This document shows, in pieces, positions 21,112-26,274 of a DNA stretch of 56,276 nucleotides. Position 1 is the stretch's first letter. Each line of letters begins with the position of its first letter. A program made the position numbers and the translations under genes. Where the stretch lies: the NCBI GenBank assembly GCA_019695115.1, contig JAIBAP010000039.1, positions 1 through 56,276 of the forward strand, given 5' to 3'. This DNA is from Caldilineales bacterium. Its GTDB lineage: Bacteria; Chloroflexota; Anaerolineae; J102. The notes under the pieces were generated by a model that did not search any database, was not told the origin of the DNA, and saw only the letters and a list, made by a program, of their open reading frames with translations.

Positions 21112-22422
21112 CTACGTCCGATAGCTCCCGTTCACCGTCACATACTCGTGGCTGAGGTCGCAAGTCCAGACGGTGGCCTGGCCGGGGCCGGAACCCAGGC
21201 GGAGGTCGATCAGAAGCTCGGGTTGGGCAAAACGGCGGGAGGATTCGGCTTCGTCGAAGGGGAGCGGGGCGCCGGCCGAGACCAGATGGAGGGGCGGGAG
21301 CAGGGTCTCCGCCTGCCCCCCGCCGCTGACCCACAACTCGGCCAGCCCTGGTTCGAAGCCAACGCCGCTGTTCCCCGCTGCCATCAGGATCCGGCCCCAG
21401 TTGGCGTCGCCGCCGTAGACCGCCGTCTTGACCAACGGCGAGATGGCGATGGCGTTGGCCACCCGGTGGGCGTCGGCGTCGGATGGCAGCCCGGTCGCCT
21501 GGATGGTCACGAATTTGGTCGCGCCTTCGCCGTCGCGGACGATGGCCTGGGCGAGGGTGGTGCAGACTTGGGTCAACAGAGCGGTGAATTCGGCAGAAGG
21601 ACGACTAAAGTCGTCACTACGAGGGTCGTTACTATGAGAGTCGTCACTATGAGGGTCGTCACTATGAGACATAAGGGGGTTCCCGGCCAGGCCGTTGGCC
21701 AGCACGACCAGCGTATCGTTGGTGCTGGTGTCGCCATCCACGCTGATGCGGTTGAACGAACGGTCGGCGGCGTGTTTCAGGGCTGCTTGCAGGGCCTCGG
21801 CGGTAATGTCGGCATCGGTGACGACGGCGGCCAGCATGGTGGCCATGTTGGGGTGGATCATCCCCGCCCCTTTCGCCATCCCCGCCACCGTCACTGTCGC
21901 CCCGCCCACCTGCCCCCGCGCCCAGGCGACCTTCATACGCGTGTCGGTGGTCATGATCGCCGTGGCGGCGGCCTCGAAACCGGCGTCGTCGGCGCGCAGG
22001 GCCTGATAAAGCGTGGGCAGGGCGGCTTCGATGCGCTCGACTGGCAGGGGCTGGCCGATGACGCCGGTGGACATCACAAACGTCGACCACGGGGCCAGGC
22101 CAAATGCCGCTTCGACGGCTTCGGCGCTACGCCGGGTGGCTGCCAATCCCTCGGCGCCGGTCACGGCGTTGGCATTGCCGCTGTTCACCAGCACAGCCTG
22201 CACACCGTCTGGGTTGAGGGCCAGCAGTTGCCGGTCATACTGCACGGGCGCGGCTGCGTAGCGGTTCTGCGTGAATACGGCCGCCGCCGTGCAGGGCGTT
22301 TCGCTGAGGATCAGAGCCAGGTCGGGCGCGCCGGCCATCTTCTTGATCCCGCAGTGGATGCCGGCGAAGGAGAAGCCGGTGGGGAGTGATATCCGCGCTG
22401 TTCCTGTTGAAGATGAAACCAT
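21112..22422 (-). CDS. argJ: Bifunctional glutamate N-acetyltransferase / ornithine acetyltransferase
   Basis: 436 residues. It transfers acetyl from N-acetylornithine to glutamate and closes the cyclic arginine pathway. The self-cleavage site that makes the alpha and beta chains is clear: 'KGAGMIHPNMATMLA', with Thr as nucleophile; 'VNSGNANAVTG' and 'DTSTNDTL' are other family blocks. It ends in the typical 'SHEYVTVNGSYRT'. An insertion after 'LAGNPL' consists of His-Ser-Asp-Asp units ('SHSDDPHSDDSHSNDPR'), encoded by a tandem repeat at 21601-21671; other ArgJ proteins have a short loop there. Its 3' end is duplicated at 20088-20242. argG lies ~630 bases upstream on the same strand. Confidence 0.96.
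   Translation of the reverse strand: MVSSSTGTARISLPTGFSFAGIHCGIKKMAGAPDLALILSETPCTAAAVFTQNRYAAAPVQYDRQLLALNPDGVQAVLVNSGNANAVTGAEGLAATRRSAEAVEAAFGLAPWSTFVMSTGVIGQPLPVERIEAALPTLYQALRADDAGFEAAATAIMTTDTRMKVAWARGQVGGATVTVAGMAKGAGMIHPNMATMLAAVVTDADITAEALQAALKHAADRSFNRISVDGDTSTNDTLVVLANGLAGNPLMSHSDDPHSDDSHSNDPRSDDFSRPSAEFTALLTQVCTTLAQAIVRDGEGATKFVTIQATGLPSDADAHRVANAIAISPLVKTAVYGGDANWGRILMAAGNSGVGFEPGLAELWVSGGGQAETLLPPLHLVSAGAPLPFDEAESSRRFAQPELLIDLRLGSGPGQATVWTCDLSHEYVTVNGSYRT
21601..21671. repeat. Palindrome plus 15-bp tandem repeat inside argJ
   Basis: It begins with the palindrome ACGACTAAAGTCGT (21601-21614), followed by about four units of the type CACTATGAGGGTCGT. Its length keeps the argJ frame open. 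The palindrome is the same element family as ACGACTGAAGTCGT found twice at 46323-46438 upstream of murJ. Confidence 0.85.
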
Positions 22423-22455: not shown

Positions 22456-22592
22456 TCACGGAAGGTCAAGTGCGCCCAAGATCGCTTCCACCTCATCCAG
22501 GAAGTCGTCTAGATCGACGCTTCGTCGCCCTTCCTCACTCCTATCATGTAATTCAGGAGCATCCAATGGGTGTCGATGCCAATGTCATGCTA
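22456..22592 (-). pseudogene. Possible remnant of a small partner gene
   Basis: Directly downstream of the 22590-22895 gene, one minus-strand frame reads 'HDIGIDTHWMLLNYMIG' and onward to 'KGDEASI' before a stop. Allowing a one-base shift, it continues as 'LDDFLDEVEAILGAL' to a second stop at 22456. It has protein-like character but no start, and looks like the C-terminal end of a broken gene. This is a weak call from reading alone. Confidence 0.3.
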
Positions 22593-22895
22593 TGACGCCA
22601 ATTTGCGCAACCGATCGATCTCTTCTTCCATATCCATCACCCCTGTCACCGCCATTTCCCAGTCGAAATAGTCTTGCTCGGCGGCAAAGGTGGGCTGCGT
22701 CGTGAGGATCATCTGTCGGAAGCTCTGGAAGTCTTGACCGTATTTGGCCTCATACCCCCGCGTCATCGTGCGATACTTGATCAGATTCCGCTGGGCGCGC
22801 TCGAGCAGCAACTGCGCGAGAACTTGATTCCAATCGAGATTGGGAAAGAGACGTTGGGCGCTGGCGCGAAGGGCCGCTGTGGTCAATGTTGCCAT
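22590..22895 (-). CDS. Small helical protein, antitoxin-like
   Basis: 101 residues from ATG 22895, chosen because everything upstream in frame is derived from the heptanucleotide repeat. The protein is predicted almost wholly helical and acidic at the C-terminus ('AEQDYFDWEMAVTGVMDMEEEIDRL'). Similar small proteins usually sit first in two-gene toxin-antitoxin-like operons. Here only a broken fragment follows. I cannot assign a family with certainty. Confidence 0.6.
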   Translation of the reverse strand: MATLTTAALRASAQRLFPNLDWNQVLAQLLLERAQRNLIKYRTMTRGYEAKYGQDFQSFRQMILTTQPTFAAEQDYFDWEMAVTGVMDMEEEIDRLRKLAS

Positions 22896-22997
22896 GACTC
22901 CTACTCCAGAAAGACGGATTTGCTTCGCTTTTCGACAGCATTGCAGTTGTCGTACAGCATCGCCATGATACCATGCACAGATCAGTTCGGCAACACG

Positions 22998-23054
22998 TAT
23001 TGCGTATTGCGTATTCTCGTCGTTACGCAACACGCAACACGCAACACGCAACAA
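22998..23054. repeat. Short heptanucleotide array (CGCAACA type)
   Basis: Units such as GCGTATT and repeated CGCAACA lie between argG and the small helical gene. They have the same 7-bp period as the other arrays in the window. Confidence 0.75.
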
Positions 23055-23056
23055 AA

Positions 23057-24325
23057 CTAATCCCGCTTGAAGGCGCTATAATCGGTCGCCCGGTAGCGCG
23101 AAGCGCCGTGACGCTCGATCTCCAGCATTGCCTGCACCTTGAGGGGCAGCCCGAACAGCTTGATGAAGCCCTCGGCGTCCTTCTGGTTGTAGACATCGTC
23201 CTCGCCAAAGGTGACGTAATCCTCGCGATAGAGGCTGTGCGGACTCTTGCGGCCCACCAGGATGGCGTTGCCCTTGTAGAGCTTGAAGCGGACCGTGCCG
23301 GTGAGGTTCTTTTCCGTCGTTTGTACGAAGGCGTCGAAAGCCTCGCGCAGGGGCGTGAACCACTGGCCGTTGTAGACCAGATCGGCGTACTTCAGCCCGA
23401 TCATCTGCTTGTAGTGCAAGGTTTCCTTGTCCAGGCAGAGCTGTTCGAGGGCGGCATGGGCCTCGTGCAACAGCGTGCCGCCGGGCGTCTCGTACACCCC
23501 GTGCGACTTCATCCCCACCAGCCGGTTCTCCACCAGATCGATGCGGCCGATGCCGTGCTTGGCGCCGATGCGATTCAGTTCCTGCATGACCCCCACCGGC
23601 CCGTGCGAGACGCCATTCACGCGGAAGGGGATGCCGGTCTTGAAGTCGATCTCCAGGTATTCCGGCTCGTTGGGCGCAGCTTCGGGGGCGGTGGTGAGGG
23701 TGTACATCACCTCTTCTGGCTCGTTCCAGGGGTCTTCCAGCAGCCCGCCTTCGTGGCTCATGTGGAAGAGATTGCGGTCGCGGCTGTAGATCGATTTCTC
23801 GGTGGCGGTGACGGGGACATGATGTTCGGCGGCGTAGTCCAGGGCGTCCTTGCGGCTGCGGATCTCCCATTCGCGCCAGGGCGCGACGATGCGCAGGCGC
23901 GGATTCAGGGCCATGATCGTCAGTTCGAAGCGCACCTGGTCGTTGCCTTTGCCGGTGGCGCCGTGCGCGACTGCATCGCAGCCCTCCATCTCGGCGATCT
24001 CGACCAGTCGCTTGGCGATCAGCGGGCGGGCCATCGAGGTCCCCAGAAGGTATTTACGCTCGTAGATGGCCCCGGCCTGCATGGTGGGGAAGACGAAATC
24101 GGTGATGAATTCCAGCCGCAGGTCTTCGATGGTGCATTTGCTGGCGCCGGAGGCGATGGCCTTCGCCTCCAGGCCCGACAGCTCCTCTTCCTGCCCCAGG
24201 TCGGCGCAGAAACAGACGACTTCGCAGCCATAGTTGTTGCGCAGCCAGGGGACGATGACGCTGGTATCGAGGCCGCCGGAGTAGGCGAGGGCGATTTTCT
24301 TGACTTTGGGTTTGTTGGTGGGCAT
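23057..24325 (-). CDS. argG: Argininosuccinate synthase
   Basis: 422 residues from ATG 24325; the open frame extends ~175 codons upstream only because the adjacent repeat array contains no stops. The enzyme joins citrulline and aspartate with ATP to make argininosuccinate. The PP-loop '[13 protein letters not shown]' is at residues ~12-24, and '[19 protein letters not shown]' and '[18 protein letters not shown]' are family blocks. It lies near argJ on the same strand, forming a loose arginine gene neighbourhood. Regulation may involve the leader region at 24830-24993, which carries a promoter, a short Arg-rich leader frame and a terminator. Confidence 0.97.
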
Positions 24326-24359: not shown

Positions 24360-24775
24360 TTGCGAAACGTGAGGCGTGAGGCGTGAAACGTGGGGCGTGA
24401 AACGTGAGGCGTGAGGCGTGAGGCGTGAGGCGTGAAACGTGGGGCGTGAGGCGTGAGGCGTGAAACGGGAGGCGTGAAACGGGAGGCGTGAAACGGGAGG
24501 CGTGAAACGGGAGGCGTGAAACGGGAGGCGTGAAACGGGAGGCGTGAAACGTGGGGCGTGAAACGTGGGGCGTGAAACGTGAGGCGTGAGGCGTGAGGCG
24601 TGAGGCGTGAAACGGGAGGCGTGAAACGGGAGGCGTGAAACGGGAGGCGTGAAACGGGAGGCGTGAAACGTGAGGCGTGAAACGGGAGGCGTGAAACGTG
24701 AGGCGTGAAACGTGAGGCGTGAAACGTGAGGCGTGAAACGTGAGGCGTGAAACGTGAGGCGTGAAACGGAACACG
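24360..24775. repeat. Large heptanucleotide tandem array
   Basis: Over 400 bp of 7-bp units, mostly alternating GTGAAAC with GTGAGGC, GGGAGGC or GTGGGGC, so a 14-bp higher-order period is also visible. All three minus-strand frames are open and encode '[13 protein letters not shown]'-type sequences; these are not proteins. It separates argG from its presumed promoter and terminator region. Smaller relatives are at 3621-3720, 22998-23054 and 37388-37462. Confidence 0.95.
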
Positions 24776-24821
24776 AAACACGGGACACGGAACACGCAAC
24801 ACGGAACACGCAACACGGAAC

Positions 24822-24858
24822 AAACAAAAACCACGATGATCGAATGTCATCGTGGTTT
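24822..24858 (-). terminator. Intrinsic terminator upstream of argG
   Basis: On the minus strand a 12-bp perfect stem (AAACCACGATGA / TCATCGTGGTTT) with a 7-base loop is followed by TTGTTTG, making a good Rho-independent terminator. It lies ~500 bases before argG and ~160 bases after the TPR gene. It either ends TPR transcription or attenuates a leader transcript from the 24988 promoter. Confidence 0.75.
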
Positions 24859-24897
24859 GGGGCGGGAACGAGGGCTACGCAGGCGCGAGGGTGGGGA

Positions 24898-24957
24898 TCA
24901 GGCGGGCTGGCCTGTCCTCGTCCCGTGGGGGGTGCGCCTGCAGCGGAGTGTAAGCAT
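24898..24957 (-). CDS. Candidate arginine-containing leader peptide
   Basis: A 19-codon frame starting at ATG 24957 (residues MLTLRCRRTPHGTRTGQPA) with Arg at 5, 7, 8 and 14. The ATG is 6 bases after the -10 hexamer, so it would be translated from a leaderless message. It is followed by possible RNA pairings and the terminator at 24822-24858, then argG. Could be chance; no homology is claimed. Confidence 0.35.
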   Translation of the reverse strand: MLTLRCRRTPHGTRTGQPA

Positions 24958-24963
24958 GGAGAA

Positions 24964-24993
24964 AGGATAAAGGCTAGGGGGTGGGGCTGTCAA
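24964..24993 (-). promoter_or_regulatory. Sigma70-type promoter of argG leader
   Basis: On the minus strand a perfect -35 TTGACA (24993-24988) is followed, after 18 bases, by -10 TATCCT (24969-24964). Transcription would begin at about 24957 and run toward argG. Confidence 0.6.
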
Positions 24994-25017: not shown

Positions 25018-26274
25018 CTAGCCATCAGCCCTTTGCCCACCCGCCCCTCGCCGCAAAACTTCCTGCACCCTGGCCGCATCCGCCTCGGCGTCAGGATGCC
25101 CGATCTCCCGCTCGTAATCCACCAGCACCTGCATGTGCCGGGCAGCCTGCGCATAATCGCCTTGCTGGGCGTAGGCCAGACCCAGATTCCAGCTCTGCAG
25201 CCCCTCGCCCCGGCGCTCGCCGATCTCCCGGCTGATGGCCATCGCTTCCTGATACAGACCGATGGCTCGTTCCCACCGGCCCTGTTCGGCATAGGCCAGC
25301 CCCAGATTGCCCAGCCGATTGGCCTCGCCCCGGTGGTCGCCGATCTCCCGGCTGACCGTCAGCGCCTGCTCGAACAGATCGATCGCCCGCTCCTGCTGCC
25401 CGCGCAGCGCATAGGCATGGCCCAGATTCCCCAACACCGTCCCCTCGTTGCGTCGATCCCCGATCTCTCGGCTGACCGCCAACGCCTCTTCATAAAGCGG
25501 CATCGCTCGCTCCGCCTGCCCGCTGTCCAGATAGACATTGCCCAGGCTGCCCAGCCGATTGCCCACCCCGCGGCGGTCGCCCGTCGCGCGGCCGATGGCC
25601 AGCGCCTGTTCGAGGGCGTCGATGGCCTGCTCTACCTGCCCCAGCAGGGCATAGGCGGCGCCCAGATTGCCCAGATTCCAGCCCGCGGCCATCCGTTCGC
25701 CCAGGTCCCGATTGATGACCAGCGCCCGTTCGTGGCAACGGATCGCCTCATCCATCTGCCCCACCGCCGCATAGGCCAGCCCCAGGCTCCCCAGCCGGCT
25801 GGCCTCGCCCCGGCGGTCGCCGGCCTTCCGGCTGACCACCAGCGCCAGCTTGAACAGACCGACCGCGTGCTCCACCTGGCCCAGGGCGGCAAAAGCATTG
25901 CCCAGATTGTTCAGATCATCCCCCTCGCCCTGCCGGTCGCCCAACTTCCGGCTGATGGCCAGCGCCTGCTGGTGGCACTCCACTGCCCGCGCTGCCTCCC
26001 CGGCATCGGCAAAGCAATTGCCCAGGTTGCTCAGCAGCAGCCCCTCCATCCGCCGGGCCAGGGTGGGCGGGTCCAGCGCCAACGCCCGCTGCAAAGCGTC
26101 GATGGCAGCGGACAGGGCGCCCAGGTCGTGGCAGACCTGCCCCAGCTCGAACAGCAGACCCCGCCCCTCCTCCGGCGCCGTAGCTTCCCCTCCTTGTCGC
26201 GCCCACGCCTCCAGCCCGGCCTCCAGTTCCCTCCGGCGCTGCCGCAACTGCTCGACTCTTGGCTCATCGTCCAT
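25018..26274 (-). CDS. Tetratricopeptide-repeat protein
   Basis: 418 residues made of about nine 40-residue TPR units ('LGNLGLAYAEQGRWERAIGLYQEAMAISREIGERRGE' type, shown here only as a family description), the long-spaced form seen in LGN/kinesin-light-chain-like TPRs. There is no signal peptide, transmembrane helix or enzyme domain; the first ~45 residues are an acidic/Arg helical lead-in. It is probably a cytoplasmic scaffold, but its partner is unknown. Neighbouring repeats are nearly identical at DNA level, so the gene is prone to unit gain and loss. It is divergent from queG, 180 bases away. Confidence 0.9.
   Translation of the reverse strand: MDDEPRVEQLRQRRRELEAGLEAWARQGGEATAPEEGRGLLFELGQVCHDLGALSAAIDALQRALALDPPTLARRMEGLLLSNLGNCFADAGEAARAVECHQQALAISRKLGDRQGEGDDLNNLGNAFAALGQVEHAVGLFKLALVVSRKAGDRRGEASRLGSLGLAYAAVGQMDEAIRCHERALVINRDLGERMAAGWNLGNLGAAYALLGQVEQAIDALEQALAIGRATGDRRGVGNRLGSLGNVYLDSGQAERAMPLYEEALAVSREIGDRRNEGTVLGNLGHAYALRGQQERAIDLFEQALTVSREIGDHRGEANRLGNLGLAYAEQGRWERAIGLYQEAMAISREIGERRGEGLQSWNLGLAYAQQGDYAQAARHMQVLVDYEREIGHPDAEADAARVQEVLRRGAGGQRADG

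Follow-up and report, generated by a model that had tools for sequence, protein, structure and literature searches.

What does the short structured region in front of argG do in this Caldilineales bacterium? The window, by which we mean the whole stretch of 56,276 nucleotides analysed, belongs to a genome of 6 Mb, and the related genomes are MAGs of Caldilineales (Chloroflexota, Anaerolineae). The first-pass annotation had seen here the expected logic of an arginine attenuator or a riboswitch-like leader. It had listed a promoter, a 19-codon frame with four arginines, two interleaved pairings and a strong terminator, and all of these are located on the minus strand of the window sequence (24993-24819). 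The promoter, TTGACA-N18-TATCCT, occupies 24964..24993 (TTGACA 24993-24988, an 18-nt spacer, TATCCT 24969-24964). An ATG at 24957, 6 nt past the -10 hexamer TATCCT, coincides with the predicted +1 and opens a mini-frame (24898..24957) coding for MLTLRCRRTPHGTRTGQPA up to its stop, with Arg at codons 5, 7, 8 and 14. The two pairings, GCAGGCGC with GCGCCTGC and CGGGACGAGG with CCTCG-T-TCCCG, are mutually interleaved. Numbering the leader from the A of this ATG (nt n is window position 24958-n), the first one, P1, joins nt 14-24 to nt 72-84. Its 5' strand is segment 1 (24934..24944), the sensor-codon stretch GCTGCAGGCGC from CGC TGC AGG CGC, recognized by folding and by the class-wide Arg run described below; its 3' strand is segment 3 (24874..24886; GCGCCTGC..AGC). 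The second, helix AT, joins nt 33-42, segment 2 (24916..24925; CGGGACGAGG), to nt 85-95, segment 4 (24863..24873; CCTCGTTCCCG), which ends 4 nt 5' of the terminator stem. A further element is the local hairpin P2 (strands 2'a:2'b; 24895..24917, nt 41-63). The intrinsic terminator AAACCACGATGACATTCGATCATCGTGGTTTTTGTTTGTT (24819..24858), identified by folding, stands between the leader ORF and the first gene, and its core CCACGA..TCGTGG is invariant in 18 of 18 family leaders. The leader of the window folds better than 200 of 200 dinucleotide shuffles (z -5.1).

The whole arrangement of promoter, mini-frame, two pairings and terminator recurs 5' of argG in 18 of the 19 readable family genomes. 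A BLAST search at the DNA level retrieved the leader in nine further family genomes, and a covariance model, a kind of search that the first-pass annotation had proposed, gave hits in 18 of the 20 family genomes (E 2e-17 to 7e-35); the leader is upstream of argG wherever both share a contig. With the same model G003 lacks the element, and in G011 the argG start is missing from the assembly, hence the site is unreadable. Two weak covariance matches (G007:C119 and G019:C569) were rejected as chance hits sitting at the terminators of other genes. TTGACA is invariant in the 18 leaders, the -10 element is TANNNT-like and the ATG follows it by 6-10 nt, a spacing from which a leaderless start of the mini-frame is predicted in all of them. 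In the window's genome 44 matches to TTGACN-N17-19-TANNNT-N4-7-ATG were counted and 6 to the reversed pattern, which suggests that transcription often starts at the ATG there. In each of the 18 leaders the ATG opens an ORF, kept in frame, whose 2-4 Arg codons fall at or close to codons 5-8 (for example MFTIRRRRIYRDEVRH, MNFQRRRRS, MKTIRRRSTIGSEIRPQV, MLRHRRRSVHGTR and MKTLYRPRLHCGTR, each up to its stop), and insertions and deletions before and within the Arg run are, by inspection, multiples of three. The conservation of Arg codons that had been suggested as a further check is therefore found, and by these sequence features the frame with four Arg codes for a leader peptide. In this family the peptide is not conserved beyond the Arg run.

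The region could be imagined as a stand-alone small RNA that lies upstream of argG by chance, since it has its own promoter and a strong terminator, and about 500 nt separate this terminator from argG in the window. We regard this as extremely improbable: the element is always 5' of argG when argG is on the contig, the covariance search gave no credible copy elsewhere in the order, and in several family genomes the gap between terminator and argG is only about 30-60 nt, which leaves no room for another promoter. In the window this gap (24364-24822) is filled by a tandem array of the 14-nt unit GAAACGTGAGGCGT, in about 29 copies, and by 8 copies of ACGGAAC; related repeats are scattered across the genome, and an uninterrupted reading frame runs along the array and on into argG. 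The argG gene itself, coding for argininosuccinate synthase and the presumed target of regulation, lies on the minus strand at 23057..24325 (NCBIfam NF001770, 614 bits; start codon predicted). It is followed by a small ORF (22590-23054) and by argJ (21112..22422, minus strand; NCBIfam NF003802, 461 bits), which is probably in one operon with argG. The C-terminal 125 aa of the intervening ORF (22590-22967) have no NCBIfam match. On the other side, a gene coding for a tetratricopeptide-like repeat protein (25018-26274, minus strand) ends about 25 nt upstream of the leader promoter.

Enrichment of the leader ORF in codons of the pathway's own amino acid, present in 18 of 18 family leaders, extends to the whole class. 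Mini-frames with an Arg run, defined as short ORFs that start with ATG and have three or more Arg within four codons, were found in 62 of 147 argG upstream regions of the class Anaerolineae; the reverse strand gave 14 and shuffles 14.8. Outside the window's family the figures are 49 of 130 leaders against 12 on the reverse strand, and among control argG leaders, mostly Clostridial, 4 of 43. No other amino acid is comparable to Arg in the class argG leaders, the runner-up being alanine (11 against 8 expected). The Arg-run leaders of the class fall into several types with unrelated sequences, including MFTLFALPRTRRPKPTSQRRSG.. in Anaerolineales, ..ARRRPAGSG.., MNTATTLTRVIRRRRTA and IRRRADERSDPASG, the last two ending at a stop. 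Among Anaerolineales, a leader peptide of the form MFxxFALPRTRRPKPTSQRRSG is conserved in front of argG (L083, L086, L087, L088, L093-L097, L209 and L218); its extension past the Arg run suggests that more than codon identity is constrained here, or that RNA pairing is involved.

The RNA folds were examined by partner-swap tests (native against swapped partners, 20000 swaps), which replaced column counts because the plain MAFFT alignment (A1) does not line up segments 3 and 4 correctly. With 10 deep representatives, AT covaries strongly (on average -25.0 kcal/mol with native and -20.3 kcal/mol with swapped partners, 1/20000), as does P2, for which 9/20000 swaps were as good. The test is weak for P1, and hence for segment 3 (165/20000 with 18 genomes, 1939/20000 with the 10 deep representatives); the 5' strand of P1 is tied to the Arg codons. 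Two compensatory cases are visible by inspection: segment 2 is changed to AGAAACGAGG in G010 and G012 with segment 4 changed to match, and an insertion in segment 1 of G009 is matched by one in segment 3. In many relatives AT is prolonged by pairing of the P2 5' strand with segment 3. Segment 3 and the P2 5' strand are each able to join both folds, so the two folds compete, and because P1 and AT are interleaved they are better read as alternative folds, which would be the simplest reading, than as a pseudoknot. From the earlier wording, "pseudoknot-like or mutually exclusive", we thus retain the second term, pairing partners being shared between the folds, and favour the first less.

This competition also bears on whether the interleaved pairings, which are both conserved, might fold into a pseudoknot acting as a direct receptor for arginine, the mini-frame being incidental. 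Such an arginine riboswitch appears highly improbable. Arg-run frames precede argG with unrelated RNA sequences, indels preserve the frame, the folds draw on the same segments, and Rfam gives no match. Of the two options raised at first, the attenuator is well supported by the conserved Arg codons, the in-frame indels, the argG link, the conserved alternative folds and the recurrence before argG, across the class and in unrelated sequences, of an Arg run combined with a terminator; a riboswitch is not needed.

An attenuator requires that the ribosome choose between the folds. When a ribosome stalled at the first Arg codon is masked in silico, AT becomes the best fold in the genomes shown; at this in silico level the leader has two mutually exclusive folds selected by ribosome position. 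In G007, G016, G018 and G019 the stop codon lies directly 5' of segment 2, so a terminating ribosome would cover that segment. Longer frames, including that of the window, have their stop inside or beyond P2, well past segment 2, and stop-codon masking therefore cannot explain them fully; for these, the folding model predicts that AT is excluded by P1, whose covariation is weak.

How AT would act on the terminator is less evident. In the stalled-ribosome model the distance between its outer end and the terminator stem is -2 to +7 nt in 17 of the 18 genomes, the exception being G005, where the stalled MFE extends 12 nt into the stem. A classical antiterminator sharing bases with a terminator arm was not found in the window's family; neither of the pairings first drawn overlaps the terminator, and the attenuator logic expected by the first-pass annotation does not hold in that classical form. 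For all the ribosome states that were modelled and shown, the terminator has a pairing probability of about 1.0, and ribosome position had no effect on terminator formation in the folding models. A search of the 18 genomes for any part of the leader able to pair with the 5' arm of the terminator gave only a partial, non-universal candidate. This candidate would correspond to the same attenuator working by base-pair competition, in which bases immediately 5' of segment 2, CUAUCGGG for example, would be paired to the 5' arm CC(A)CGAUGG of the terminator. Duplexes of -9 to -13 kcal/mol are predicted at this position in G001, G004, G005, G006, G007, G013 and G016, and of the two terminator arms the 5' one is the better conserved. 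However, the top duplex lies elsewhere in G010, G012, G015, G017, G018 and G019, the pairing is weak in the window (-4.2), segment 2:segment 4 is preserved in G010 and G012 through compensatory change, and the terminator remains fully paired in the stalled model. We consider base-pair competition unlikely.

The position of AT would instead suggest a steric effect. A helix flush with the terminator is present in 13 of 18 argG leaders and in 6 of 7 his leaders of the family (see below), where shuffles expect about 4.3 of 25. Elsewhere in the class, window-like long helices ending 0-3 nt before the terminator were identified at L025, L028, L079, L150, L163, L173 and L184; counting flush helices in nine argG loci from outside the family gives a biased figure, these loci having been chosen after the pattern was seen, and the family and his counts are kept separate from it. 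A second type of class leader harbors a classical antiterminator on the terminator 5' arm (e.g. L040, GUCCGGGG:CCUCGGAC), which covaries in other Anaerolineae (native -19.1, swapped -15.1, 0/20000). The base of a terminator hairpin closes within the RNA polymerase exit channel, so a rigid helix joined to it through just a few nucleotides would be expected to get in the way. As AT is flush with the terminator and does not overlap it, antitermination would have to be steric, which is the least certain part of the scheme. Tentatively, the arginine and histidine switches of Anaerolineae may possibly represent a new form of antitermination, in which a flush, non-pairing helix sterically blocks terminator closing.

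Two further leaders are present in the family. The window's genome has another Arg leader, MLHPAFAPRPRYFASSPD, in front of argC and argB (L269, G000:C84:7900-10500), with MKMTLRPRRRFF and MITLFLRSRRPLF in relatives, all three ending at a stop; its RNA architecture differs and a flush helix is not clearly shown. A putative leaderless His leader coding for MLQFSSHHHD lies 5' of hisZ-hisG (L263, G000:C74:1840-2241; also L268) and has counterparts ending in ..SHHH or ..THHHT in relatives, seven family genomes in all. It carries a helix flush with the terminator; its AT is conserved, with no covariation signal in the swap test (6589/20000). This sister leader, with His codons in the same design, counts against nascent-peptide arrest, in which the Arg-rich peptide, lodged in the exit tunnel, would stall the ribosome when free arginine or some other ligand is sensed and not through a lack of charged tRNA. 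The lack of peptide conservation outside the Arg run in the window's family argues likewise. Arg-sensing stalling peptides do exist, as in the fungal arginine attenuator peptide, and the Anaerolineales argG leaders share peptide sequence past the Arg run, but for the window we hold peptide arrest to be very unlikely.

The leader of the window is thus very probably a ribosome-mediated transcription attenuator that would sense the supply of arginyl-tRNA and control argG, and probably argJ too. In this attenuator, transcription would start at or within about 4 nt of the ATG and ribosomes would load at the 5' end. When arginine is plentiful, the ribosome would pass the Arg codons; in short-frame relatives it would mask segment 2 from the stop codon, and in leaders of the window type the Arg codons left free would pair with segment 3 (P1). 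In both cases AT (segment 2:segment 4) would be blocked and the terminator would halt transcription. When arginine is short, the ribosome would stall at the Arg codons, P1 would be blocked and AT would form, allowing read-through; standing at the terminator base (-2 to +7 nt), AT may hinder the terminator from zipping in the exit channel of the polymerase. Of this scheme, the anatomy and its conservation, the run of Arg codons, the covariation of AT and the link to argG are observed, and that the frame is translated, that ribosomes stall on it and that regulation has this sign are inferred by comparing sequences. No ArgR C-terminal domain was found in the 20 family genomes, while control genomes gave matches, and arginine attenuation would explain how arginine synthesis is controlled where ArgR is not detectable. 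It would also be widespread in a class where attenuation has hardly been studied. The occurrence of a flush antiterminator with unrelated arg and his sequences makes it a testable question whether a neighbouring helix can block an intrinsic terminator without sharing a base.

Ribosome-mediated attenuation is textbook knowledge for Trp, His, Thr, Leu and Ile/Val, and in trp-type attenuators the antiterminator shares bases with a terminator arm. The leader studied here resembles those of the trp, his, thr, leu and ilv operons (His_leader and related families in Rfam) in its peptide rich in codons of the product, its alternative folds and its intrinsic terminator before the first gene. It differs from them in responding, as we propose, to arginine, in being translated from a predicted 5' end and in a switching helix that, in the window's family, abuts the terminator and does not overlap it. 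Rfam covariance models gave no match at gathering score for the window, the argC leader, the his leader or the other argG loci tried, in agreement with the initial failure to assign a class. A bacterial ribosome-mediated arginine attenuator was not found in the open-access literature searched, which does not prove its absence. In other bacteria arginine genes are under T-boxes, and no RNA element for arginine was found in Actinobacteria (PMC1262725). The arginine T-box leaders named in that article likewise place arginine genes under RNA-level control via tRNA charging, but T-boxes read the tRNA directly without translation, and no T-box match was obtained here. In the LEU element of actinobacterial leuA, the run of sensor codons also base-pairs, and a pseudoknot or an alternative hairpin is possible; there the Leu codons pair with the Shine-Dalgarno box (PMC1262725), whereas here the codons pair with segment 3, and the terminator follows. 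The nearest precedent for a start at the 5' end is the mycobacterial polycysteine attenuators (Canestrari et al. 2020, cited in PMC13236596), in which a leaderless short ORF with a run of the sensed codon controls a biosynthetic operon. Those ORFs sense cysteine, are without obvious terminators (PMC1262725) and are cited as translation attenuation (PMC13236596), whereas the present leader has arginine codons and a strong intrinsic terminator. Read from its sequence, this leader would follow ordinary attenuation logic in a new setting, arginine in the Anaerolineae, and with an unusual RNA geometry.
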